DNA from: Anaerolineaceae bacterium
Lineage (GTDB): Bacteria; Chloroflexota; Anaerolineae; Anaerolineales; Anaerolineaceae
DNA: 64,000 nucleotides
Assembly (NCBI GenBank): GCA_029975475.1
Contig: JARKPB010000019.1
Location: 186,001 to 250,000, forward strand
Direction of reading: 5' to 3'
The notes beneath the pieces were generated by a model, which was not told where the DNA came from, did no database searches, and was given only the letters and a program-made list of their open reading frames with translations. The position numbers and the translations under genes were made by a program. Numbering within the stretch: position 1 is the first letter of the stretch; each line of letters starts with the position of its first letter. Of the stretch, positions 33,000-47,693 are shown piece after piece.

Positions 33000-35111
33000 A
33001 TGGAAAACTTATCCGGTCAGTCAGTTGGGCGTTATCAAATTATCGAGCCGGTCCGCGGACAGGGCGGGATGGCGGTGGTTTACCGCGCGTTTGATACCCG
33101 CCTGGAGCGGGATGTAGCGGTAAAGTTCATCCGCCGCGAAGCCTTCAGTCCCGAAATGCTGGCGCGGGTGATGGAGCGCTTTGAGCGCGAAGCCAAGACT
33201 CTCGGCCGGCTGACGCATCCCAACATCGTGCCGGTGATTGATTTTGGCGAACACGAAGGCGCGCCGTACCTGGTGATGCCTTACCTGCCGGGCGGCACCC
33301 TGAAGGACAAACTCGGCCGGCCGATGCCCGCCCGCCAGGCTGCCCGCCTGCTGGTGCCGGTGGCGGACGCGCTGACCTTCGCCCACAATCTGGGCATCAT
33401 CCACCGCGATGTTAAACCCGCCAATATTCTCCTGACCGGCGACGAGCGAGCCATGATCACCGACTTTGGCATCGCCAAACTGCTGCTCGACCACGACGGC
33501 GGCACGCTGACCGGCACGGGGGTCGGGATCGGCACGCCCGAATACATGGCGCCCGAACAGGGCCTGGGGCAGCCGGTGGACGGGCGCGCGGATATCTACG
33601 CCCTGGGGGTGGTGTTTTACGAACTGGTGACCGGCGCCAGGCCGTACAGCGCGGATACGCCGATGGCGGTGGTGTTAAAGCACGTGACCGACCCGTTGCC
33701 GCGCGCGCGCGACTTCGCCCCCGACCTGCCCGAACAGGCGGAAAAGATCCTGCTGAAAGCCATGGCGAAACGGCCGGAAGACCGTTATCAGCGCATGGAA
33801 GAATTCGCCCAGGCGCTGGATGACCTGGCTGAAGGGCGTCCGCTGCGCGAAATCGCCAATATCCCGGTCGTGCCGCAGTGGCAGACGACCGAATTCACCG
33901 TGACCGGCGGAGGCGAGACGGTCGAACTCGGTTCGCAGATCAAACGCCAGATCGAGGAGGGGCTGACCAACCAGCCGGCTTCCGGCACGCAGGTGGCAGT
34001 ACCCGCCCCGGCCCAGCCGCCCGCTGCGGCGCCCAAACCAGCGGCGGGCGCGCCCGCTTCCCCTGCCGCGCCGCCCGCGGCTGTCAGGTCTGATCTGTTC
34101 ACCGTCCAGCCGCCGAAGAAGAAAAAGCGCGCCAGCGCCTGGCTGTGGCTGCTGCTGCTGCCGCTGGCGGCGGGACTGGCGTATCTGTTTCTGCCCGGTC
34201 TGCTCGCGCCGGCCGCGGCCCCCTACTCCCCGGCCAATCAACCCGCGGTCAGCGAGGCGCCGCCAGCCGACACCCCGACCCCCGAGACGCCGTCCGAACC
34301 CTCCCCAACCGCTGAACCGGCCGCCCTGCCGCTGAGCCAGGATGTACCGGCCTGCAGCGAGGCTTCCGCCGACTGGAAGGACGCCAACCAGCAGTATCTG
34401 CGCTGCGTGCCGGCGGGAGCGTTTGAAATGGGCGCGGCGCAAAACGGAACCAGCCTGGAAGCGGAAGCGGATGAATACCCGCAGCACCGCGTGTTTGTGG
34501 ACGCTTTCTGGATCGATATGTTTGAAGTGTACGGCAAAGCCTACTACCGCTGTGTGGAAGCCGGCTATTGCAGCCCGTCTGTGGGCTTTGACTCGAACTC
34601 TATTAAACCGGTGGTGAACATCAGTTGGTACGCGGCACAGAAATTCTGCGAATGGCGCGGCGGACGGCTGCCCACCGAGGCTGAATGGGAGAAAGCCGCG
34701 CGCGGCGACGACGGGCGGGTGTACCCGTGGGGCAACAACGCCTGGGACGGCAGCCAGGACAATCTGGCGGACGCCAACGTGGATTTGGAACACGCTCAAA
34801 AGGAATACAACGACGGCTACGCCGGGCCGGCGCCGGTGGACGTCTTTCCGGACGGCGCCAGCCCGTTTGGCATTCTGGGTATGGGCGGCAACGTGCGCGA
34901 GTGGGTTTACGACCGCTACGCAGCCGATTATTACGCCTCCTCGCCTGAAAGAAATCCCTCCGGACCCACCAGCGGCAATACCCGCGTGGTGCGCGGCGGT
35001 TCCTGGCAGGATCTTTCGCGGTGGAACGCGCGCGTTTCAGACCGCGGCTGGGCCAGCCCGGAATCGCAGTCGGATTACATCGGTTTCCGCTGCGTCATCC
35101 CCGCCCCGTGA
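33000..35111 (+). CDS. Ser/Thr protein kinase fused to formylglycine-generating-enzyme-like domain
   Basis: 703 residues. The Hanks-type kinase covers about 10-280: glycine loop [15 protein letters not shown] Lys about 42, HRDVKPAN with catalytic Asp about 137, and DFG at about 155-157. A Pro/Ala-rich linker follows, one membrane helix (about 379-400), then a Pro/Thr-rich stretch. The extracytoplasmic domain (about 450-703) is of the FGE-sulfatase/SUMF1 type: [50 protein letters not shown] and the final GFRCV. In this family the outer domain is often a binding or sensing module rather than an active enzyme. The kinase could phosphorylate FHA-binding partners; the FHA-ABC gene lies 23 kb away, so any link is speculative. 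Confidence 0.94.
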
Positions 35112-35288: not shown

Positions 35289-36563
35289 ATGACTCCAACC
35301 GAATCCGAGCCCAAGCCGCGCTGGCCGCAGGTGCTGGTCTTCAGCCTGATCGGCGTGGTCGTCCTGCTTGGTTTTGTCCTCGTCTGGCGTCTGACCAGCC
35401 AGCCCGCCGCCGCGGGGGAGAGCCGCGTTGACGCGCTGGCCAATTCGACCGACCGCTGCGTGACCTGCCACCGCCAGGCCAGCCCCGGCATCGTTGCTCA
35501 GTACGGGCACAGCAGCATGGCCGCCGCCGGAGTCTCCTGCAGCGACTGCCACAAGGTCGAAGCCAATTATCCCGGCGCGGTGCAGCATGAAGGCGTGTGG
35601 GTTCTGCCTTCGCCTTCCACGGCGGTGTGCCAGCGCTGCCACCAGGCCGAGGTGGCGCAGTATAACCAGAGCCGCCACGGCATTCCCGCCTGGGTGGCGG
35701 TGGTCGGCAGCAAAGACCTGCCCCCCGATATCCTGGCGGCCTACCAGGCAATTCCCGAAGGCCAGTTCGCGCCGGACAAATCGCGCAACATTCTGGCGGA
35801 AATGGAAGGTGAAGACATTACCCGGTTCGCCTGCGAAACCTGCCATTCGATTGGAAAACCCTACGCGGATCAATCCATCGGCCAGTGTTCTTCCTGCCAC
35901 CTGCGCCACGAGTTCAGCCTGGAACAGGCGCGCAAACCCGAAACCTGCAACGCCTGCCATATCGGTCCAGACCATCCCCAGTGGGAAATCTACCAGGAAT
36001 CCAAGCACGGCATCGCCTACATGACCGGGGGGCACCGCTGGAACTGGGAAGCCGAGCCCGGCACGCTGACGGTTAAGGATTTCCCGGCGGCGACCTGCGC
36101 GGTCTGCCACATGAGCGGATTTGGCGGCACCAGCACCACGCACGATGTCGGCGAGCGCTTGAGCTGGTACCTCTTCGCCCCGGTGTCCGAGCGCCGCCCC
36201 TCCTGGCAGGACAACGTCGTGCGCATGCAGTCGGTCTGTCAGGAATGCCACAACGACAATTTCATCAAGACCTTCTACGCGGACGCGGATAAAGCCACCA
36301 CGGCGGTCAATGATTTCGTCCTGCAAAGCCAGGCGATCATGAAAGACCTGCGCGCCAAAGGACTGGTGGCCAGCGAACCCTTCAGCGAGCCAATCCAGTT
36401 CGAGGAATATGAACTGTGGCACCACTGGGGGCGCACCGCCAAGTTTGGCGTCTGGATGCAGGGGCCGGACTACACCCAGTGGCACGGCGCGTATGAGATC
36501 GTCAAAGCCCTGGCGCATATCCGCACCCTGGCGGAAGAAAAGCTGAACGCGGCGGGCAAATAA
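35289..36563 (+). CDS. membrane-anchored octaheme cytochrome c, hydroxylamine-oxidoreductase-like
   Basis: 424 residues. One N-terminal membrane helix (about 14-33) anchors an extracytoplasmic domain with eight CxxCH haem sites beginning at about residues 57, 84, 114, 182, 200, 220, 270 and 317. The spacing, the segment HPQWEIYQESKHGIAY between haems 6 and 7, and the C-terminal GPDYTQWHGAYEI are like the HAO family, whose members oxidise hydroxylamine or hydrazine, or work in reverse on nitrite. Whether the cross-linking Tyr of true HAO is present cannot be decided by reading; the Tyr in the C-terminal motif is a candidate. The ribosome site AAAGGAG precedes the ATG. An 8-TM-like protein gene follows after 2 bp. 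A -10-like TATAAT is at 35240-35245. Confidence 0.85.
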   Translation: MTPTESEPKPRWPQVLVFSLIGVVVLLGFVLVWRLTSQPAAAGESRVDALANSTDRCVTCHRQASPGIVAQYGHSSMAAAGVSCSDCHKVEANYPGAVQHEGVWVLPSPSTAVCQRCHQAEVAQYNQSRHGIPAWVAVVGSKDLPPDILAAYQAIPEGQFAPDKSRNILAEMEGEDITRFACETCHSIGKPYADQSIGQCSSCHLRHEFSLEQARKPETCNACHIGPDHPQWEIYQESKHGIAYMTGGHRWNWEAEPGTLTVKDFPAATCAVCHMSGFGGTSTTHDVGERLSWYLFAPVSERRPSWQDNVVRMQSVCQECHNDNFIKTFYADADKATTAVNDFVLQSQAIMKDLRAKGLVASEPFSEPIQFEEYELWHHWGRTAKFGVWMQGPDYTQWHGAYEIVKALAHIRTLAEEKLNAAGK

Positions 36564-36565
36564 CC

Positions 36566-37471
36566 ATGGGCCGGCTGGCAGAAGTTTTTCCATTCCTGAA
36601 TAAGGTGCGGCTGCCGCTGGACCGCGACCAGGTTGTGCTGCTGCTGACGGCTTTCATGCTGTTCATGCTGGGGGTGGATACTTTCCTGGCGCACTCGATC
36701 AGCGGCACCATCCGCCCGGGCGAATGGATCCCGATCCTCTTCGGCCCGGCGGCGGGGGCGCTGCTGGGGCTGGCGGGGTTGATCGCGCTGCGCCGGCGCA
36801 CGGCAGCCAACATCTTCGCCTCGATCGTCTTTCTGGCAAGCCTGGCGGTTGGCGCGCTGGGCACCTATTTTCACCTGGCGCGGGCGGTGATCCCGGCCGC
36901 GCCGGCCGGCCAGCAGTTCACCACGGCCGTCCTGTTGTACGCCCCGCCGGTGCTTGGCCCGCTGACCTTCGCCCTGGTGGCTGTGCTGGGGATCAGCGCT
37001 GCCTGGCAGGAGGAAAAAGTGGACAGCGGCAGACTGCGCCTGTTTGGCGGGCTGAGGCTGAACATGCCGCTGTCGAAGACGCGCGCCTACTTCCTTCTGG
37101 TGGCGGTCTTTACCCTGGCCACGCTGATCAGCAGCGTGATTGACCACGCCCGCACCAATTTTGTCAACCCGTGGTTGTGGCTGCCCACCTTCGCCGGCGC
37201 GTTCGCCACGCTGGCGGCGCTCTTCACGGGCGTGATCATGAAACCCACCCGCGGCGATCTGGCCGTCTACACCGCGGCCATGCTGTTGATGATGGCGGTC
37301 GGGGCGGTCGGCGCGGGGCTGCATGTGCTCGCCAACCGCACCGGCCAGGGGGCGTTGATCATTGAGCGCATGATCCGCGGCGCGCCGGTGCTGGCGCCGC
37401 TGCTGTTCGCCAACATGGGCCTGCTCGGGCTGATTGTGCTGCTTGACCCGCGCGGCCCGCGCGAGAAGTGA
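36566..37471 (+). CDS. unknown multi-pass membrane protein, partner of the octaheme cytochrome
   Basis: 301 residues with about eight hydrophobic helices and no domain I recognise. Histidines lie in or next to helices (YFHLARAVI, SSVIDHART, AGLHVLANR), which could ligate haem b or a quinone, but this is inference. It begins 2 bp after the octaheme cytochrome stop and is followed by a strong terminator, so the two form a two-gene operon. It may link the cytochrome to the quinone pool, in the place that NrfD, NapC or CycX-type proteins fill in other organisms, though it does not look like those families. Confidence 0.75.
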   Translation: MGRLAEVFPFLNKVRLPLDRDQVVLLLTAFMLFMLGVDTFLAHSISGTIRPGEWIPILFGPAAGALLGLAGLIALRRRTAANIFASIVFLASLAVGALGTYFHLARAVIPAAPAGQQFTTAVLLYAPPVLGPLTFALVAVLGISAAWQEEKVDSGRLRLFGGLRLNMPLSKTRAYFLLVAVFTLATLISSVIDHARTNFVNPWLWLPTFAGAFATLAALFTGVIMKPTRGDLAVYTAAMLLMMAVGAVGAGLHVLANRTGQGALIIERMIRGAPVLAPLLFANMGLLGLIVLLDPRGPREK

Positions 37472-37478
37472 AAGCAAA

Positions 37479-37509
37479 ACCGGCTCCTCGCGAGGAGCCG
37501 GTTTTTTTT
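37479..37509. terminator. strong rho-independent terminator
   Basis: Perfect 12-bp arms ACCGGCTCCTCG and CGAGGAGCCGGT followed by eight T on the plus strand. Four T (TTTTGC) follow on the minus strand, so it can also serve the convergent znuA-like gene. Confidence 0.9.
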
Positions 37510-39485: not shown

Positions 39486-42400
39486 TTATTTCGCCGGGTC
39501 AACCCGAACCAGGACCGCGCGCACCAGGACGCGCTTCAGGTAGCCGTTGGCCACCGGGTTAAAATCTTTGCAGGTCACCAGGGTTAACCAGGCTTTCTCT
39601 TCATGCTGCAGCAGCCGGGCGGTTTCCTGCGGGGCTGCCACACTGACCTGGCGCACTTCATAGTGGTAAACCTTTCCGAAGGCGTGGATCAACACCGGCT
39701 GACCCCAGCGCAGTTCACCCAGCCGGCTGAAGGGGCCGGGCGTCCCATCCGGCAGGCTGACATGGCCGGTGAGCACGCTGTTGCCGCTGTGGGTTGGATA
39801 TGCCGAACCTTCGAGGTAACCGGCGCTGCGGCCCAGCCAGGTTACATCCCACTCGCCGCCGGTCAGCGGCACGCCGACAACCGGCATTTTAACCCCCAGA
39901 TCGGGGATTTCAAGCGTGAGATCATCCGCGGTTTGATACTGTTTGTCGGCCGTCTGCGGCGGCAGGCGGGTGATGACGCCCGGGGCAAACCCGGTCGCGG
40001 GGATCACCGGCTGGGAGATCTCCAGCACCGCGCTGGAGGTGTTGTTGCTGCGAATATCGGTCAGCGAATCCGTGGAGAGGGTCACCTGGTTGGTAACCGG
40101 CGGCTGGCCGGGCGCATTCACGCGCGCGAGGACGGTGATGGTGACCACTTCGCCAGGATCCAGCGAGCCGATTTCCACCCGCACCGTGCGCGGGGCGATC
40201 ACCTCCACCGCGCGCCCGCCGCTGGCGGTGGCGCTGACCAGGTCAAGGTTGGCGGGCAGGGGATCGGTAACGACCACATTCAACGCCGGAGATGTGCCGC
40301 TGTTGGTCGCGGTGATGGTGAAGGTCACCTGTTCGCCAACGGCCGCGCGCTGGATATTGACCGATTTACTCACCGCCGGATCGGCAAATTCAGGTCCGCT
40401 GACGCTGTCTGTGCCGGTGACCCGGGTTTCATCATCGGTCATTCCGGTGACCTCGGCGGTATTGGTGAAGACCAGGGCTTTACCGCCCGTATTGACCTCG
40501 ACAGTGAGGGTCAGCGCGCCTTCCTCCCCCGCGGGGAGGGCGTTTCCGGGAGCCAGCAATTCAACCTCGCTGCTGCCGTTGTACGCGGCGTTCAGGTTGA
40601 AATCCGCGCTGTTGGTGCCCGTCAGGCTCCAGGAGACCGCGCTGTCAAAAGCCTCTGCCAGATCGTCGCGGATGGACAGATCCTGCAGGTCCGCGCCGCC
40701 CAGATTCTCCACCGCGATCCGGTAGGTGATGCGGATCACATCCGGGTTAACGATCAGCACCGCGCTTACAGATTTTTCTACCTTCAGGGCTCCAAATCGG
40801 ATGGTCAGGCTGTCGTTCGCGCTGGCGCCTTCGGTGGAACTGGCGGTGGCATGATTGGTCACCTCGCCGGCTTCAACATCCGCCGCTGAGGTCTCGTAGG
40901 TACCGGAACAGGTCATGGACTCATCCACAGCCAGGGTGGTTTTCGGGCAGGTCACGGCCACGCCGCGGTCATCAGTCACGCTGAGGCCGCTCAGGCTGCT
41001 GCTGCCCGTGTTCGTGACCTTGTAGGAGTAATGGATGGTTTGCCCGGCGGCGGTGAAATATGCCGGGCTGGCGCTCTTTGTTAGGGTCAGACCGGCCAGG
41101 CGCACCGTTTCTTGAGCGGTCGCGTCCGGAGCCTGATCGGAACTGGCGGTCACGGTGTTGCTCACGCTCCCGGCGGTCACATCCGCCGCGCTGACCGCGT
41201 ATGTCTTCTCGCAGGTCATTTCCTCGCCAACGGTCAGGCTGCCCTTCGGACAGGTCACCGACCCGGCTTTATCATCACTCAGGCTGATCCCGGTCAGAGC
41301 GACCTGCCCTGTGTTGCGCACCTGGTAGGTATAGGTGATCCCGTCCCCGGCTTTGAGGTACACCTCCGGGCTGGCGCTTTTACTGACGCTCAACCTGGCC
41401 AGGCGCACCGTTTCCTGATCGGTCGCGTCCGGAGCCTGATCAGAACTGGCGGTCACGGTGTTGCTCACGCTCCCGGCGGTCACATCCGCCGCGCTGACCG
41501 TGTAAGTCTTCTCGCAGGTCATTTCTTCGCCAGCGGTCAGGCTGTCCTTCGGACAGGTGACCGACCCGGCTTTATCATCACTCAGGCTGATCCCGGTTAG
41601 AGCGACCTGCCCTGTGTTGCGCACCTGGTAGGTATAGGTGATCCCGTCCCCGGCTTTCCCGTAATAGACCGGGCTGGCGCTCTTGTTAACCGCTAAACGC
41701 GCCAGATAAATCGTGAGCGTGTCTTCTTCATCCGGCGTTTCGCTGGAAGATACCGTTACCTTGTTGGTGACCGATTTGGCGGTAACATCCGCGGAAGTGA
41801 TGGTATAGGTCCCGCTGCAGGTCATCTGCTCGCCGATATTCAGGCTGGTCTTGGGGCAGGTGACCGTCCCGAGCTGATCATCGCTCGCGCTGATTCCGGT
41901 CAGCGGCGTCCCGCCGGTATTGGTGATGAGGTAAGAATACGTGATGGTCTGACCTTCAGCGGTGAAGTAAGCCGGGTCGGCGCTTTTCTCGACCGTCATG
42001 GTCGCCGGGTAAAGCGTGACCGTGGAAGTCGCGTCCGGGGCCTGATCGGATTTTGCCGTCACCGTATTGGTCAGGCTGCCAGCCAGAAAATCTCCGGCGG
42101 TGACCGTGTAGGTTTTCGTGCAGGTCATGCTCTCGCCGGCCGTCAGACTGGTCTTGGGGCAGCTGACCGCGCCAAGTCTGTCATCGCTTAGATGGATGCC
42201 TGTCAGCGGGTACGCGCCGACATTCTCAACCTCATACGAGTAGGTGATCTCTTCTCCGGTCCGCGTGTAGCGGTCTGGATCCGCACTTTTTACAACGCGC
42301 AATCTCGCCAGCGACACGGTGGCGTGGTCGCTGATGGGCGGTAATTCGTTGGAGGTAACCGTAACCGTGTTGGTGACAAATTTACGGGTAACATCGGCGG

Positions 42401-45400
42401 CGGTGATGAGGTACGTTGTGGTGCAGGTCATTGATCCGCCCGCCGCCAGACTGGTGTTGGGGCAGGGTACCGTGCCGGCTTTGTTATCGCTGACCACGAT
42501 ACCGGTCAACGGTTCGCTGCCGTTGTTGGTGATGACGTAGGTATAGGTGATTTCATCCCCTTCAGCCTGGAAATACAGCGGGGCAGCGGTTTTCGTCACC
42601 TCCGCGCTGGCAAGGTAGATGGTGAGTTCATCCACCGCGTCTGGAGCCTCGGTCGAAGAGACGGTAACCTGGTTGGTAACGCTGCCACTGGCTACGTCCG
42701 CCGGCAGAATCGTGTAGGTCAGGCTGCAGGTCATATTCTCCCCGGCGGCCAGGCTGGTCTTGGGGCAGTCGGCGGCTCCACCTTTGTCATCAATCACGTT
42801 GATGTTATGCAGGGTAACCGCACCGGTGTTTTGGATCAGGTATTCATAGATGATTTCATCCCCCTGCTGGGAAAAATAGCCGGGGTCCGCGCTTTTGGTT
42901 ACGCTAAGGGTTGCCCGCCGGACCGTGGCGCTGTCCGCCGCGTCCGGGGCTTCGTTGGAACTGGCTGTAACCGTGTTCGTTACCGTCCCGTTCAGAAAAT
43001 CACCCGGAGAGATCGAATAACTGGCCGTGCAGGTCATCTGTTCCGCGACATCCAGGCTGGTTTGGGGACAGCTGACGGTTCCGGCCAGGTCGTCGCTCAG
43101 GCTGATGCCGGTCAGGGGCACCTGGCCGGTATTGGTCACCAGGTAAGAATACGAGATGGAGTCATCCACCGCGCCAAAATACAGCGGGCTGGCAGTTTTT
43201 TCCACGCTGAGCGTGGCGCGGTAAATGGTCAGGCTGTCCTGGGCGTCCGGCGCCTGGTCGGAGCGGGCGGTCACGGTATTGCTCACACTGCCAGCGCTCA
43301 TATCCGCGCTGGTAATCGTGTATTCCGCCGAGCAGGTCATCTGTTCATCCACCGCCAGGCTGGTCCTGGGGCATGAAACCGCCCCGGCTTTATCATCGCT
43401 CAGGTTGATGCCGGTCAGTTCGATATCGCCGGTATTGGTTAATTGATAAGAATAGGTGATTTTCTCGCCCGCGCGGCTAAAGGTCTGAGGCAGCGCGCTT
43501 TTTTCGACCGTCAGAGTCGCCTGGTAGGTCGTCAGGTCGTCCACCGCCTGGTTACCCGTGCCGGCGTTGCTGGAACTGACCGCCGCGCTGGTGTTTGTGC
43601 GTGTCCCGGTGGCGGTTGAAACGATTCGAACGCTGGCCGTGCAGGTTCCTCCAGCCGCAATCGTGCCCCCGCTGAAGGTCAGGCTGGTATCTTCCGCCTG
43701 GGGTTCAAAAACCGGGGTGCCGCACCCGCTCAGGGTGACCTCGGGGGGGCTGGCGACCTTCATGTGTTCGGGCAGCGAATCGCTGAACTCGACCCCGGTG
43801 AGCGCTGATGCGGTATTCGGATTCGTAATGGTAAAGGTGAGCGTGGTGGCGCCGTTCAGCGGGATGGCATCGGGGGAAAACTGCTTGCTGATCTGGGGCG
43901 GCGCGAGCACCTCGACCGTGTCTCTGGCGCTGTTGTCGCTTTCATCATATTCGTTGATCAGTTCATCCGGATCAACGACCGCCGTGTTTACGCGCTCGCC
44001 AGCGGCCAGCGGCGATACAGGGATCTGAATTGAGAAGGAAGCGCCCGGCGGCAGGCTGACCGGCGTGAGCGCGACGCAGCTGACAGTGGCGGAACTCAGG
44101 GTGCAGGCGATCGTACCGGAAGGCGGGACAGCCCCTGGGATAACGGTCAACGCGCCGTCGCTGTAGTCCTCAGGCGCGCCCGGCAGGTTGTCGCTCAAAA
44201 TCACCTGACCGGCGGAACCAAAACTGGCGCTGAGCGGGCCGATGTTGGATACCTCGATCGTCCAGGTGAAACTGCCGCCCTTCGGCAGGCTGCCAGCGGT
44301 ATTATTGGTTTTTGTAACGGTTAGGTTTGGCAGGTTAAACGGAACGGTGGCTGTGCTTTCATTTGAAGTGGACCCGCCCGCGGAAGCGGTGGCCCTGTTG
44401 GTGACTTTCTTCGCGGCGACATCCTGCGCTGTGGTGGTATACGCGCCCGTGCAGGTAATTTCTTCCCCGGGATCGAAGAAATTATCCAGATCCCCGATGG
44501 TCGAAAGCGCCGGGCAGGTCGCCGAGGCTTTATCATCCGAGATGACCACCGGTCCGTTCAGGGTGGCAAACCCGGTATTTTTCACCAGATAACTGTAGTG
44601 CAAGACCTCGCCGGCGCTCGAAAACGCCGTTTCTACCGCCGATTTCGTCAGCGTCAGACCGGTGGTCGCGTAAGTTGCCGTGTCCGTGTCTGTCACCGTG
44701 CTGGTCAGGTAGGTGCCGCTGGCTTCAGCCGTGTTCGGCCGGCTGCCGCTGCTGGCGGTGACCGGACCGCGCACACAGCTCTGAATGGGTTCAACCGTCG
44801 CGCTGGCGACCGGCAGCGGAGCGGTCCAGCTGCAGCCAGCCGGATCTGCGGAGGTGCCTTGCAGCTGGCTGTCAACCACCTGCAGATTGGAAAGCGGCAC
44901 ATCACCGGTATTTTCAATCGTGAAGCGGTAATAAACCGGCGCATTCGGGGCGACAGCCAGGAAATGCGTCCAGGGACCGCTGGGAGACGGGCCAACCTGC
45001 TTGAGCAGGGCGATTGAGGGGCTGGGCGCGGTGGTGGTCAGCGTGTCGCTGCCAGTGTTTCCGCTGCCCGCGTTGGATGAGCTGACGGTTGAAGTTGTGT
45101 TGGTAAACGACCCGACGGTGCCCGGGGCGGTGACATCCACCTGAACCTTGCAGAACTGCCCGGCCGGGATGGTCGCGCCGCTGAAAGTGAAGCTGGTCGC
45201 GCCGCCGACCGGATTGAAAGTTGGCGTACCGCAGTTCTCGGTGCTGAAGACGACCGGGCTGGCAACGCTCATCCCGGTTGGCAGACTGTCGTTAAATTGC
45301 ACACCGGTCAGGGCCGTGTCCATATTCGGGTTGTTGATGATGAAAATCAATCGAGTTCTTCCGCCGGCGACCACACTTTCTGGCGAGAAGGTCTTGCTGA

Positions 45401-47693
45401 TCGAAGGCGGCAGCAGCCCGTTGATGTTCGCGGTTGCGATGCTGCTGATGTTGGTTCCTGCTTCGGTGGTGGTGAGAAAGCCGCTGATGTTGTTATGCGC
45501 GCCGGCGGATGTGATTTTGACCGTCACGCTGGCGGTGCAGGAACCGCCAGCCGGCAAGATCGCTCCGCTGGGCGAACCGAAGGTCAGACTGGTCGCGCCA
45601 GGGGCGGGCGACCAGGTGGGTGAACCGCCGCAGGTAGTGCTGGCTGACGGGCTGGTGTGAACTTCAACGCCGGCCGGCAGGGCATCGGTAAAGGCCGCGC
45701 CGTTCAGCGGCAGGCTGTTGGGATTGGTCAGCGTGAAGGTCAACACAGCCGTGTTGTTGACCGGCACCGCCGCGGCGCTGAAGGTTTTACTGATCGTGGC
45801 TTTTTCAGGAGTTCCGCAGCCGGTGAAGGTTACCTGGTCTATGTTCATATCCGCGCCGCTGGTTTGAGCGTTCGCGCCGTACCCATAAATGCGGAAGTAC
45901 GTGATGCCGGTCGTGCTGGCGGCGGGAAAATTATACGGGCCGTAGGAAAGCCAGCCTGTGGTTAAGTTAAAATCAGCCGCTTTGGTCCAGTTGATCAGGT
46001 CGGTGCTGTAATGCAGTTCGCTGCTGGTCGGACCGTTGGCTTTACGAGTGCTGTTAAACGACATCTGAATACTGTTGTACTTACTGGTGTCAATCGCGAA
46101 CTGGATATACGGCGAAGTTGCGAGCGTCACCGGTCCATTTTTTGGCCAGCCGTAGAGCGCCATGGAAGGCGCGGCGGGACTGCCGGTGTTATCCGGCGCC
46201 GCGCTCAGACCATTGCCGAGGCTGATTTCCGCGGTGGTCACGTTGGGCTGTTTGCTGTTTGGGGCGGGTATGCCGCTCGTATAATCTGCGAAAGTCCACT
46301 GAGCCAGGTTAATGCCGCACAGCCCGGTGCCGCCGCTGGCGGTGTTAACGGTCAGACTGGCGCTGGCTGTCTTGCCGGTGTTGGTCGTGCCGACATACAG
46401 GGGATTGGTGGTATTGGTAAAGGTGCCGGTGGAGGTCGCCGTGACGTTCACCTTAATCACGCAGCTGCCTCCCTCGGCGACGGTGCCGTTGCTGAAGGAC
46501 AGGCTGGTATCGTTGGCAGAGGGGTTAAATATCACCGAACCGCAGCCAATCGTGCTCGCCCCGGTCGGGCTGGCAACTTTCAGGCCGTTCGGCAGAGGGT
46601 CGGTGAAATTAAACCCGGCGATCGCCGCCCCGTTCGGGTTGCTCAGCGTGATGGTCAGGGTGGAGATGCCGTTCACCGCGGTCGGGTTGGGGCTGAAGGA
46701 TTTGCTGATGTTGACGTTGGTCGGGTCAACGATCGCGGCAATCCGCGCGCCGGTCGAGTAATCCGAGTTGTAGTGATAGCTGCTGCCAGAAAAGTCGTAG
46801 AGGAGGGTCGTCAGTGTCTGATTGGTGCCGCCGCCGCTAATCACCTTGATCACGTAGGTGGTAACCACATTGCTGCCGCCCGATTTATAATCACCGCCTA
46901 TGCAGGAGCGGTAATTGGGGCTGTTCGGGTCGCTCTCCCACAGACAGGCATCCGCGTACAGCTGGGGATGGTTGGTGGTGGCCACATAGGGCGAATTGTT
47001 CGCCGAGTAATTGGTGCTGACCGATTGAATTTCAAAAATCGTGTTGGGAAGATTGATAAACGCTTCGAACTGGTTGTAACCCTGAGTGGCCGTGCCGCCG
47101 TAGAGCTTGATGGTATAGGTGTTGCCGACCACCAGCGCCATCGTTCCGCCGGGCGGGATCTCCTTCCCATCCAGTTCCACTTTGGTGACCGAATTGCGGT
47201 TCTGGGAAATCAATTTTTCGATATAGAGCTGCCGCGGCACCGGGCTGCTGCCGGTCGAGCCGTCCGCGGCGGTGGCGGTGATCTGATAGCGGCGTGTGGT
47301 AAAGTAAGCGCCTGGATCGCGGGTTACCTGCGCCTCAAAGTAAGCATCACGGCACTGGCCGGATGGGATGGAAGGGAGGACAATCACGTCCGAAGTGCCG
47401 GTCCGCAGGTTGATGTAAGGGTTGGCTGATTTCCATTCAAACACCACGCTGACGTTGTTCACCGCGGCGGCCTGGTCGTTGCATACTTTCACGCCGACCG
47501 GAAACAGGTAGGGCCCGCTGGCCGGCGCGTTGCTGTCCAGGCCGATGACATCCCAGGTGATTGGCACGACCCGCAAACTACCGGCCGCCAGGGCTGGCGC
47601 CGAGGGGAACGCTACCCCGGCCAGCATCGTAAATAGGGCTATGATCCGCAACAGGATGGTGGTGACCTGCGTCCGGCGGTGGGTTGTTTGCAT
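39486..47693 (-). CDS. giant secreted DUF11-repeat protein with C-terminal sortase domain
   Basis: 2735 residues. Signal peptide about 1-37 (ending ALA). The N-terminal region (about 40-330) is of unknown fold. DUF11-type beta-sandwich repeats follow, several opening with a KxFSP-like motif, and are interrupted at about 450-640 by a jelly-roll-like domain (CGINLAQWTFADYTSG). Nine tandem repeats of about 101 residues run from about 1390 to 2300, each with a CP...TSL...MTC cysteine pair. Two more DUF11-like domains follow. The last ~174 residues are a sortase: IPATG just before it (about 2564), then LTGH with the catalytic His (about 2644), TLVTC with the Cys (about 2708) and Arg about 2721-2725. 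No C-terminal anchor helix is seen. It could attach itself or neighbours to the surface; this is inferred. The start has only a weak ribosome site. A strong terminator follows. Confidence 0.92.
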   Translation of the reverse strand: MQTTHRRTQVTTILLRIIALFTMLAGVAFPSAPALAAGSLRVVPITWDVIGLDSNAPASGPYLFPVGVKVCNDQAAAVNNVSVVFEWKSANPYINLRTGTSDVIVLPSIPSGQCRDAYFEAQVTRDPGAYFTTRRYQITATAADGSTGSSPVPRQLYIEKLISQNRNSVTKVELDGKEIPPGGTMALVVGNTYTIKLYGGTATQGYNQFEAFINLPNTIFEIQSVSTNYSANNSPYVATTNHPQLYADACLWESDPNSPNYRSCIGGDYKSGGSNVVTTYVIKVISGGGTNQTLTTLLYDFSGSSYHYNSDYSTGARIAAIVDPTNVNISKSFSPNPTAVNGISTLTITLSNPNGAAIAGFNFTDPLPNGLKVASPTGASTIGCGSVIFNPSANDTSLSFSNGTVAEGGSCVIKVNVTATSTGTFTNTTNPLYVGTTNTGKTASASLTVNTASGGTGLCGINLAQWTFADYTSGIPAPNSKQPNVTTAEISLGNGLSAAPDNTGSPAAPSMALYGWPKNGPVTLATSPYIQFAIDTSKYNSIQMSFNSTRKANGPTSSELHYSTDLINWTKAADFNLTTGWLSYGPYNFPAASTTGITYFRIYGYGANAQTSGADMNIDQVTFTGCGTPEKATISKTFSAAAVPVNNTAVLTFTLTNPNSLPLNGAAFTDALPAGVEVHTSPSASTTCGGSPTWSPAPGATSLTFGSPSGAILPAGGSCTASVTVKITSAGAHNNISGFLTTTEAGTNISSIATANINGLLPPSISKTFSPESVVAGGRTRLIFIINNPNMDTALTGVQFNDSLPTGMSVASPVVFSTENCGTPTFNPVGGATSFTFSGATIPAGQFCKVQVDVTAPGTVGSFTNTTSTVSSSNAGSGNTGSDTLTTTAPSPSIALLKQVGPSPSGPWTHFLAVAPNAPVYYRFTIENTGDVPLSNLQVVDSQLQGTSADPAGCSWTAPLPVASATVEPIQSCVRGPVTASSGSRPNTAEASGTYLTSTVTDTDTATYATTGLTLTKSAVETAFSSAGEVLHYSYLVKNTGFATLNGPVVISDDKASATCPALSTIGDLDNFFDPGEEITCTGAYTTTAQDVAAKKVTNRATASAGGSTSNESTATVPFNLPNLTVTKTNNTAGSLPKGGSFTWTIEVSNIGPLSASFGSAGQVILSDNLPGAPEDYSDGALTVIPGAVPPSGTIACTLSSATVSCVALTPVSLPPGASFSIQIPVSPLAAGERVNTAVVDPDELINEYDESDNSARDTVEVLAPPQISKQFSPDAIPLNGATTLTFTITNPNTASALTGVEFSDSLPEHMKVASPPEVTLSGCGTPVFEPQAEDTSLTFSGGTIAAGGTCTASVRIVSTATGTRTNTSAAVSSSNAGTGNQAVDDLTTYQATLTVEKSALPQTFSRAGEKITYSYQLTNTGDIELTGINLSDDKAGAVSCPRTSLAVDEQMTCSAEYTITSADMSAGSVSNTVTARSDQAPDAQDSLTIYRATLSVEKTASPLYFGAVDDSISYSYLVTNTGQVPLTGISLSDDLAGTVSCPQTSLDVAEQMTCTASYSISPGDFLNGTVTNTVTASSNEAPDAADSATVRRATLSVTKSADPGYFSQQGDEIIYEYLIQNTGAVTLHNINVIDDKGGAADCPKTSLAAGENMTCSLTYTILPADVASGSVTNQVTVSSTEAPDAVDELTIYLASAEVTKTAAPLYFQAEGDEITYTYVITNNGSEPLTGIVVSDNKAGTVPCPNTSLAAGGSMTCTTTYLITAADVTRKFVTNTVTVTSNELPPISDHATVSLARLRVVKSADPDRYTRTGEEITYSYEVENVGAYPLTGIHLSDDRLGAVSCPKTSLTAGESMTCTKTYTVTAGDFLAGSLTNTVTAKSDQAPDATSTVTLYPATMTVEKSADPAYFTAEGQTITYSYLITNTGGTPLTGISASDDQLGTVTCPKTSLNIGEQMTCSGTYTITSADVTAKSVTNKVTVSSSETPDEEDTLTIYLARLAVNKSASPVYYGKAGDGITYTYQVRNTGQVALTGISLSDDKAGSVTCPKDSLTAGEEMTCEKTYTVSAADVTAGSVSNTVTASSDQAPDATDQETVRLARLSVSKSASPEVYLKAGDGITYTYQVRNTGQVALTGISLSDDKAGSVTCPKGSLTVGEEMTCEKTYAVSAADVTAGSVSNTVTASSDQAPDATAQETVRLAGLTLTKSASPAYFTAAGQTIHYSYKVTNTGSSSLSGLSVTDDRGVAVTCPKTTLAVDESMTCSGTYETSAADVEAGEVTNHATASSTEGASANDSLTIRFGALKVEKSVSAVLIVNPDVIRITYRIAVENLGGADLQDLSIRDDLAEAFDSAVSWSLTGTNSADFNLNAAYNGSSEVELLAPGNALPAGEEGALTLTVEVNTGGKALVFTNTAEVTGMTDDETRVTGTDSVSGPEFADPAVSKSVNIQRAAVGEQVTFTITATNSGTSPALNVVVTDPLPANLDLVSATASGGRAVEVIAPRTVRVEIGSLDPGEVVTITVLARVNAPGQPPVTNQVTLSTDSLTDIRSNNTSSAVLEISQPVIPATGFAPGVITRLPPQTADKQYQTADDLTLEIPDLGVKMPVVGVPLTGGEWDVTWLGRSAGYLEGSAYPTHSGNSVLTGHVSLPDGTPGPFSRLGELRWGQPVLIHAFGKVYHYEVRQVSVAAPQETARLLQHEEKAWLTLVTCKDFNPVANGYLKRVLVRAVLVRVDPAK
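40795..43520 (-). repeat. nine tandem ~303-bp coding repeats (101-residue DUF11 units)
   Basis: Each unit runs from a KSA/DP-type opening through TYSY.V.NTG, LTGI.LSDD, a CP pair, MTC and a closing NTVTASS.APDA segment. Borders are approximate. Units diverge except for the two described separately. Confidence 0.85.
41098..41703 (-). repeat. two nearly identical adjacent 303-bp repeat units
   Basis: Units 41098-41400 and 41401-41703 differ by eye at about ten positions in their first ~255 bp, far less than other units, so they arose by a recent duplication or conversion. Confidence 0.85.

Follow-up and report, generated by a model that had tools for sequence, protein, structure and literature searches.

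The 64,000-nucleotide stretch analysed here (the window: contig JARKPB010000019.1, positions 186,001 to 250,000, from the Anaerolineaceae bacterium assembly GCA_029975475.1) carries a gene for an octaheme cytochrome c of the hydroxylamine oxidoreductase (HAO) family, followed directly by a gene for a membrane protein with eight transmembrane (TM) helices. The two genes are a genuine system, conserved as a pair in Anaerolineae-type Chloroflexota. We propose that its products form a two-subunit membrane redox complex, in which a reductive octaheme is served by a quinol-linked 8-TM partner with a likely heme b, a reading whose chances we judge to be about even. The observations behind it are the pair and its conservation, an internal duplication of the membrane protein with a fixed histidine pattern, the presence of the quinol dehydrogenase NapC/NirT in the same place beside related octahemes, and the linkage of distant relatives of the membrane protein to GMC oxidoreductases. 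An earlier note on this DNA had described the pair as a quinone-linked nitrogen-redox module, possibly with a new membrane electron-transfer subunit; evidence from beyond the window (the NapC/NirT place and the GMC link) clearly favours this last idea, while the heme b, the quinone, the complex and the substrate are still inferred.

Conservation of the gene pair

By scanning genome contigs with an alignment (A1) and two peptide patterns (His43 of the 8-TM protein lies within one of them), we collected 49 loci of this gene in other genomes. An octaheme open reading frame (ORF) lies directly upstream, on the same strand, in 48 of the 49 loci, so the pair that the earlier note proposed to search for does recur elsewhere in the same order. 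All eight heme-binding motifs fall within one ORF in 43 of these 48 loci (contig ends truncate L040, L041, L051 and L060, and L044 is split and contains Ns), and in the 49th locus (L038) only about 200 bp are present upstream of the 8-TM gene, near a contig end. Most of the loci come from bins of Anaerolineae or other Chloroflexota, and single loci from bins named Actinomycetota, Acidimicrobiia and Gemmatimonadetes. In a set of 61 genomes, whose loci partly overlap the 49, the 8-TM protein was found in seven, host included, and a multiheme ORF adjoins its gene in all seven loci of the six other genomes (a contig end truncates two of these loci). The pairing of the two genes is beyond chance. 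Neighbourhood clustering of the 49 loci gave no third gene kept in most of them, and the large clusters on the minus strand are apparently shadow ORFs of the pair.

Among 400 genomes of the same phylum, eight match the octaheme family PF13447, seven of them over the cut-off. Three have the 8-TM partner beside the octaheme, as judged by coordinates; in the others the octaheme stands behind NapC/NirT (G239), stands alone (G124), is split over two frames (G062) or is a short fragment (G419), and the match under the cut-off (G178) is a different multiheme protein.

Two smaller gene clusters were seen at these loci and are absent beside the window pair. A Crp/Fnr-type cluster (Pfam check of one member) covers 7 of the 49 loci, and a small cupin-like gene (PF07883, tested in two members) precedes the octaheme in eight: L019, L020, L025, L026, L027, L037, L048 and L056.

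An HAO-family octaheme with an epsilonHao-type signature

The earlier note's description of a membrane-anchored octaheme of the HAO type holds. The window protein matches PF13447 with E 4.7e-32 and 111.8 bits (curated cut-off 21.9), has a hydrophobic N-terminal helix and is the sole match to this family in the host genome (3.15 Mb, 98.9% complete). Its sequence matches in the PDB are the Ignicoccus OCC (4qo5), the N. europaea HAO (NeHAO, 4fas), anammox HAO-like proteins and hydrazine dehydrogenase (HDH); the family profile finds the same set and, additionally, NrfA at E 0.005. The nearest octaheme to that of the window (79%) belongs to an Anaerolinea bin (L017).

In the 44-row octaheme alignment, the eight CxxCH motifs are present in every row, as is the Asp228-His229 pair, whose counterpart in NeHAO, Asp267-His268, has a role in the heme-4 pocket. 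None of the 44 rows contains a CxxCK motif of the type found in octaheme nitrite reductase (ONR) and NrfA, which at the active-site heme is a mark of both enzymes (PMC12285233; the papers cited by PMC number are drawn on for parts of their text). The earlier note had also singled out the cross-linking Tyr as a point to check. We located the position of NeHAO Tyr467 through an alignment of the Ruegeria HAO to 4fas and then in the MAFFT alignment A7, where Gln397 of the window protein, one residue off Trp398, stands opposite to it; no row of the 44 has a Tyr at 397 or 398, in place of which Gln and Trp are found, so the residue whose cross-link to heme 4 marks the oxidative HAO and HDH enzymes (P460) is missing. 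Met390 is conserved in 44 of 44 rows and Trp398 in all 43 that are ungapped there, which agrees with the signature given for epsilonHao, a Trp at the Tyr position and a Met eight residues before it (PMC8940962, after Haase, in part). In the portions consulted of PMC12758564 and PMC8940962, absence of the cross-linking Tyr is tied to reductive enzymes, and according to part of PMC9213671 the HAO of Campylobacterota converts nitrite to ammonium in vitro. The window octaheme is a member of the HAO family but, by these residues, not an oxidative HAO, and the missing Tyr, together with the NapC/NirT parallel described below, suggests the reductive direction.

In a tree of 49 rows, the 44 octahemes linked to the 8-TM protein form one group together with that of locus L128 (support 97/99), three octahemes linked to NapC/NirT form a separate group (98/97) and the Ruegeria HAO stands apart, a placement that is only coarse because the tree is midpoint-rooted and three rows have long branches.

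The 8-TM gene at the place of NapC/NirT

Related octahemes have a membrane electron donor gene at their side. On plasmids of the sulfate reducers Desulfosarcina ovata and Desulfobaculum bizertense (tblastn identity to the window octaheme 36% and 35%, respectively), the octaheme gene lies directly behind a NapC/NirT gene, and likewise in G239, a Chloroflexota genome of the host's class; PF03264 was confirmed in the NapC/NirT genes of all three, and the window octaheme is 35-38% identical to the three octahemes. A third plasmid match, the Ruegeria HAO, has haoB and not NapC/NirT as its neighbour. NapC/NirT precedes the octaheme gene in these relatives and the 8-TM gene follows it in the window. 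Since the host genome gives no match to NapC/NirT (PF03264), no membrane partner gene other than the 8-TM gene takes the place that a quinol dehydrogenase has beside related octahemes; searches of the same genome for NrfA (PF02335) and Hcp (PF03063) were equally without match. Families of cytochrome c assembly, complex I type and NrfD type do match in the host, and from a reading of the ORFs they probably belong to a Ccm system, a complex I and an alternative-complex-III-like cluster.

A duplicated four-helix unit with two histidines

The alignment of the 8-TM protein (A2) has 46 rows; of the 49 loci, L041 was dropped as a near-duplicate and L048, L054 and L064 as truncated. The AlphaFold2 model built from it (predicted local distance difference test, pLDDT, 88; predicted template modelling score, pTM, 0.88) has eight TM-length helices and a few short ones. 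Comparison of the N-terminal with the C-terminal half gave a probability of 97.1 (E 5e-11), revealing an internal duplication that pairs His43 with His194 and His103 with His253. These four are the only invariant histidines of the protein (46 of 46 rows). Counts of Lys and Arg in the octaheme-linked family favour a cytoplasmic location of the termini and a periplasmic one of the His side. Each half is a four-helix unit whose helices 1 and 3 carry one of these His apiece, close to the helix end and both on the same, predicted periplasmic, side.

The earlier note could not assign this protein to the NrfD or NapC families, and neither could we. It has no Pfam family at E 0.1 (one at E 0.35) and no NCBIfam, PHROG or PDB sequence match; neither it nor ten further members match PF03916 (NrfD) or PF03264 (NapC/NirT) at E 0.1. 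In a Pfam scan of the 46 A2 members at E up to 1, 40 families were weakly matched; the two quinol-anchor families are not among the 25 of these that were listed, where DmsC, another quinol anchor, appears with a weak match in 2 of the 46 members (best E 0.21). Foldseek comparison of the model gave 467 matches in the PDB at E <= 10 and 227 in BFVD, none of either at E <= 0.001.

Two candidate relationships were set aside. The phage holin family PF16079 matched 28 of the 46 members (best E 2.5e-4), and on rescanning 4 of 10 members with at most 18 bits (cut-off 29.2) over about 55 residues, which we take as a match of hydrophobic helices; two PDB sequences matched the A2 profile at E 0.22 and 0.23, taken as chance.

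A wider superfamily beside GMC oxidoreductases

The A2 profile matches 29 of the 400 same-phylum genomes, of which three (host included) hold a close relative with the octaheme and 26 a distant one. A PF13618-type gene (gluconate 2-dehydrogenase subunit 3, G2DH3) and a GMC oxidoreductase gene lie directly beside the distant relative in 25 of these 26 Chloroflexota loci (by phmmer, with Pfam confirmation in L107 and L109), and in the 26th (L137) the contig ends inside the gene. The GMC-linked loci are L105-L124, L132-L136, L138-L145 and L149-L158. Most of the distant relatives are double units (20 aligned in A4, in addition to the cut L137), while L110, L132 and L133 have two adjacent single-unit ORFs and L119 and L136 one single unit. 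Profile-profile comparison of A2 with A4 gave a probability of 99.4 (E 5.6e-21, 266 columns). Additionally, a Granulicella member matches 26 plasmid records, itself included, and in all 18 plasmid regions viewed the PF13618-type and GMC neighbours are present; these regions span Actinomycetota, Deinococcota, Acidobacteriota and Pseudomonadota, which with Chloroflexota makes five phyla. The plasmid genes are annotated as 'hypothetical protein' and once as 'putative membrane protein', and at E 0.01 ten proteins of the superfamily gave no NCBIfam family and eight plasmid proteins no Pfam family, with some GMC-linked members showing weak Pfam matches under the cut-off. Both His are kept in 173 of 173 4-TM units (92 from A2, 40 from A4, 8 from A5 and 33 from plasmids), a count with some built-in bias to the motif, because all the units were collected by similarity.

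To the question raised in the earlier note, whether the second gene occurs mostly without the first, there are two answers: never in the close 8-TM family (48 of 48 loci that can be judged), and mostly so in the wider superfamily, where another redox enzyme takes the octaheme's place. This second answer bears on whether the 8-TM protein, as a constant neighbour of a heme protein, could serve the octaheme in assembly, in heme insertion or as a channel rather than carry electrons; its relatives adjoin FAD-type enzymes, for which c-heme insertion and a channel for nitrogen compounds are both unnecessary, and we regard such a function as very improbable indeed. An electron-transfer role, in contrast, gains support, because the protein stands at the NapC/NirT place and its distant relatives adjoin GMC flavo-oxidoreductases. 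Two unrelated oxidoreductases, one of them otherwise found beside a quinol dehydrogenase, share a partner with two His per unit, and a membrane electron carrier is the simplest reading of this. We tentatively extend it, with chances a little short of even, to the whole of this widespread, unnamed superfamily: its members would be membrane electron-transfer modules, built of a 4-TM bundle with one b heme on the His of helices 1 and 3 and occurring singly, as two genes or in tandem, which may serve as a common quinone connector for an octaheme reductase and for GMC/gluconate-dehydrogenase-type flavoenzymes, replacing NapC/NirT or a cytochrome c subunit.

The cluster of membrane unit, G2DH3-type and GMC genes is often joined by a gene for a thiamine pyrophosphate (TPP)-dependent enzyme and an enolase-superfamily gene. 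In two Deinococcus plasmids (L139:5481-8069 and L144:4341-7010) the G2DH3-type and GMC parts are in one ORF, and a small protein, VKOR-like from a reading of its sequence, precedes the single-unit membrane gene.

Proposed working of the pair and alternatives

In the working that we propose, the octaheme would face the periplasm and act as a reductive HAO-family member, most likely on nitrite and/or hydroxylamine (or NO), with the 8-TM protein as its membrane partner, replacing the NapC/NirT (NrfH-like) quinol dehydrogenase. In each half, a b-type heme would most likely be bound by the two His, with a quinol site next to it, and electrons would pass from quinol through the heme(s) b and the eight hemes c to a substrate in the periplasm. 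The heme b, the quinone, the contact between the subunits, the direction of flow and the nature of the substrate are all points that we infer.

Several observations weigh against parts of this proposal. The first concerns direction: Tyr395, three residues before Trp398 and near the cross-link position, is invariant (44 of 44 octaheme rows). With the conserved Asp-His pair of the HAO pocket and the dehydrogenase-type enzymes beside the distant relatives, it would suit an octaheme that oxidises hydroxylamine, NO or another N compound, the 8-TM protein then delivering electrons to the quinone pool, a task that the GMC-linked version would perform for its flavoenzyme; electron-transfer modules can, moreover, be reversible. 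The Gln/Trp at the cross-link position, the Met-x7-Trp pattern and the NapC/NirT quinol dehydrogenases of the relatives argue for the opposite direction, and we hold a reversed flow to be decidedly improbable.

The second concerns the cofactor. The top structural row for the 8-TM model is a soluble metalloprotein of tandem four-helix build, 3d19, with a VIA-align Z of 16.1 (232 residues, 3.8 A) against 9.6 for the next, a likeness that we take as a shared tandem four-helix arrangement, although the two may be kin; NrfD, NapC and b561 structures do not occur in the 50 rows shown, but this does not speak against them. With the heme a prediction from the His pattern, the four His might instead be ligands of a metal (Fe, Cu or Zn) or lack a cofactor altogether, leaving the 8-TM protein as an anchor or a heme-free quinone binder and the octaheme fed by quinone directly or by a soluble carrier; NrfD-type subunits also work without heme. 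However, the His lie on helices 1 and 3, on the same side, with a conserved Gly before the second, as we would expect of a bis-His heme held between diagonal helices, and they are kept in every one of the 173 units. We consider the metal or cofactor-free reading unlikely, if worth keeping in mind.

The third concerns the substrate. Sulfur reduction was proposed for a clade I HAO-family protein, and the family has members in 65 phyla, many of them unlinked to nitrogen cycling (parts of PMC9213671); the lack of NrfA and Hcp matches in the host would also fit an octaheme acting on a sulfur compound, or on another acceptor, and not on nitrogen species. Against this, norR lies two genes away from the D. 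ovata octaheme and a nitric-oxide reductase gene three genes away, and the Campylobacterota enzymes reduce nitrite in vitro (PMC9213671, in part). A nitrogen substrate thus remains our preference, and a sulfur one seems quite unlikely.

Other points on the same side concern the quinone, the partners and the pair itself. Neither menB nor MqnA/D (PF02621) gave a match in the 98.9% complete host genome, which leaves the quinone unaccounted for: the organism may obtain it from outside or by a different route, or else the quinone step of our proposal is mistaken. No clear signal peptide was found in the G2DH3 and GMC proteins (21 and 7 N-termini), and a loose RR pattern, present in 5 of the 21 G2DH3 N-termini, has in none of them an obvious hydrophobic stretch behind it within 75 residues, so these enzymes may be cytoplasmic and the partners in the two systems may be on different sides of the membrane; Lys/Arg counts are ambiguous for the GMC-linked subfamily. 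The octaheme of L128 is nested in the 8-TM-linked clade (on a long branch, its place unsure) and has no membrane partner. A fused read-through co-fold of the two L017 genes (pTM 0.57, with low pLDDT in much of the octaheme part and, in the membrane-only rows, as many as about 20 N-terminal residues misaligned onto that part) is neutral on contact.

The L128 octaheme (L128:6847-8217, minus strand) has, from a reading of its sequence, a lipoprotein-like N-terminus, and it adjoins a rubrerythrin-type gene.

In an open-literature search, mostly without subscription papers, no title named the octaheme/8-TM pair or dealt with the GMC partner, and we make no claim of absence from print. Most HAO-family octahemes of organisms other than the known ammonia oxidisers have no known function (PMC9213671, in part). 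How those without NapC are supplied with electrons becomes a testable question with a dedicated membrane partner whose position is constant (48 of 49 loci). In the same way, a heme or quinone result for one member of the unannotated membrane unit beside gluconate-dehydrogenase-type GMC genes would be informative for a family that spans at least five phyla.

Locus layout and neighbouring genes

The coordinates of the pair are collected in Table 1. The 8-TM gene starts 2 bp after the TAA of the octaheme gene, and a hairpin follows it, in agreement with the layout given in the earlier note. The hairpin has a folding energy of -26.3 kcal/mol (z -2.5, with 3 of 200 shuffles equally good); a terminator consensus scan lists it on the minus strand only and finds three sites in the region, not above shuffles (mean 2.5). 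The flanking genes have no evident link to the pair. Upstream (33000-35111, plus strand), a fusion of a Ser/Thr protein kinase with a sulfatase-modifying-factor (FGE) domain ends 177 bp before the octaheme, and downstream, on the opposite strand, there are ZnuA and Fur-type genes. Further on (39486-47693, minus strand) is a 2735-aa protein with DUF7507/DUF7933/DUF11 repeats, whose own C-terminus is a sortase domain (PF04203, E 2.1e-23).

Table 1. Features of the two-gene locus, in window coordinates.
Feature	Position	Strand	Remarks
HAO-family octaheme cytochrome c gene (PF13447)	35289..36563	+	424 aa, 8 CxxCH, N-terminal TM anchor
Predicted N-terminal membrane anchor, octaheme residues ~12-35	35322..35393	+	sequence reading; helix 15-38, pLDDT ~56-70, in model of homologue L017
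Octaheme Asp228-His229	35970..35975	+	aligned with Asp267-His268 of N. europaea HAO (4fas)
Octaheme Met390-x7-Trp398, epsilonHao-type signature replacing the cross-linking Tyr	36456..36482	+	alignment
8-TM membrane protein gene, tandem 4-TM unit, unnamed superfamily	36566..37471	+	301 aa
His43 codon, end of TM1 of 8-TM protein	36692..36694	+	46/46 rows
His103 codon, towards end of TM3 of 8-TM protein	36872..36874	+	46/46 rows
His194 codon, end of TM5 of 8-TM protein	37145..37147	+	46/46 rows
His253 codon, towards end of TM7 of 8-TM protein	37322..37324	+	46/46 rows
Rho-independent terminator-like hairpin after gene pair	37476..37505	+	T run, folding energy

Comparison with known systems

Small TM bundles with a bis-His heme and a quinone site, beside a flavoenzyme, are known from SdhC/D; the likeness is one of analogy, since Pfam scans give the 8-TM protein no sequence relation to them and the heme is here a predicted one. 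The three-subunit dehydrogenases of the gluconate 2-dehydrogenase/GMC type consist of a PF13618 subunit, a GMC subunit and a cytochrome c. The distant relatives of the 8-TM protein adjoin genes for the first two. Of the 18 plasmid regions, L152 has a c-type cytochrome gene in the PLSDB tables (which are incomplete), two genes before the membrane gene, and the other 17 have none there.

With NrfD/PsrC, the 8-TM protein shares the number of TM helices (eight in NrfD, according to part of PMC12285233) and a redox-enzyme neighbour, but it lacks a PF03916 match, has His pairs at its helix ends and comes without a ferredoxin subunit in the pair. With NrfHA the likeness lies in the proposed model only, a membrane quinol dehydrogenase with a periplasmic multiheme reductase; that enzyme is a pentaheme, whereas the window enzyme is an octaheme without CxxCK (44 of 44 rows), and the host genome has no NrfH-type gene.

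Other likenesses, in gene arrangement and active site, are found among the octahemes themselves. Those linked to NapC/NirT are also part of a two-gene unit with a membrane electron donor, but this donor is the tetraheme NapC/NirT, whereas the window octaheme has the 8-TM protein as its neighbour and falls in a clade of its own. With the epsilonHao of Campylobacterota, the window octaheme shares the eight CxxCH motifs, the Asp-His pair and the Met-x7-Trp that replaces the cross-linking Tyr.

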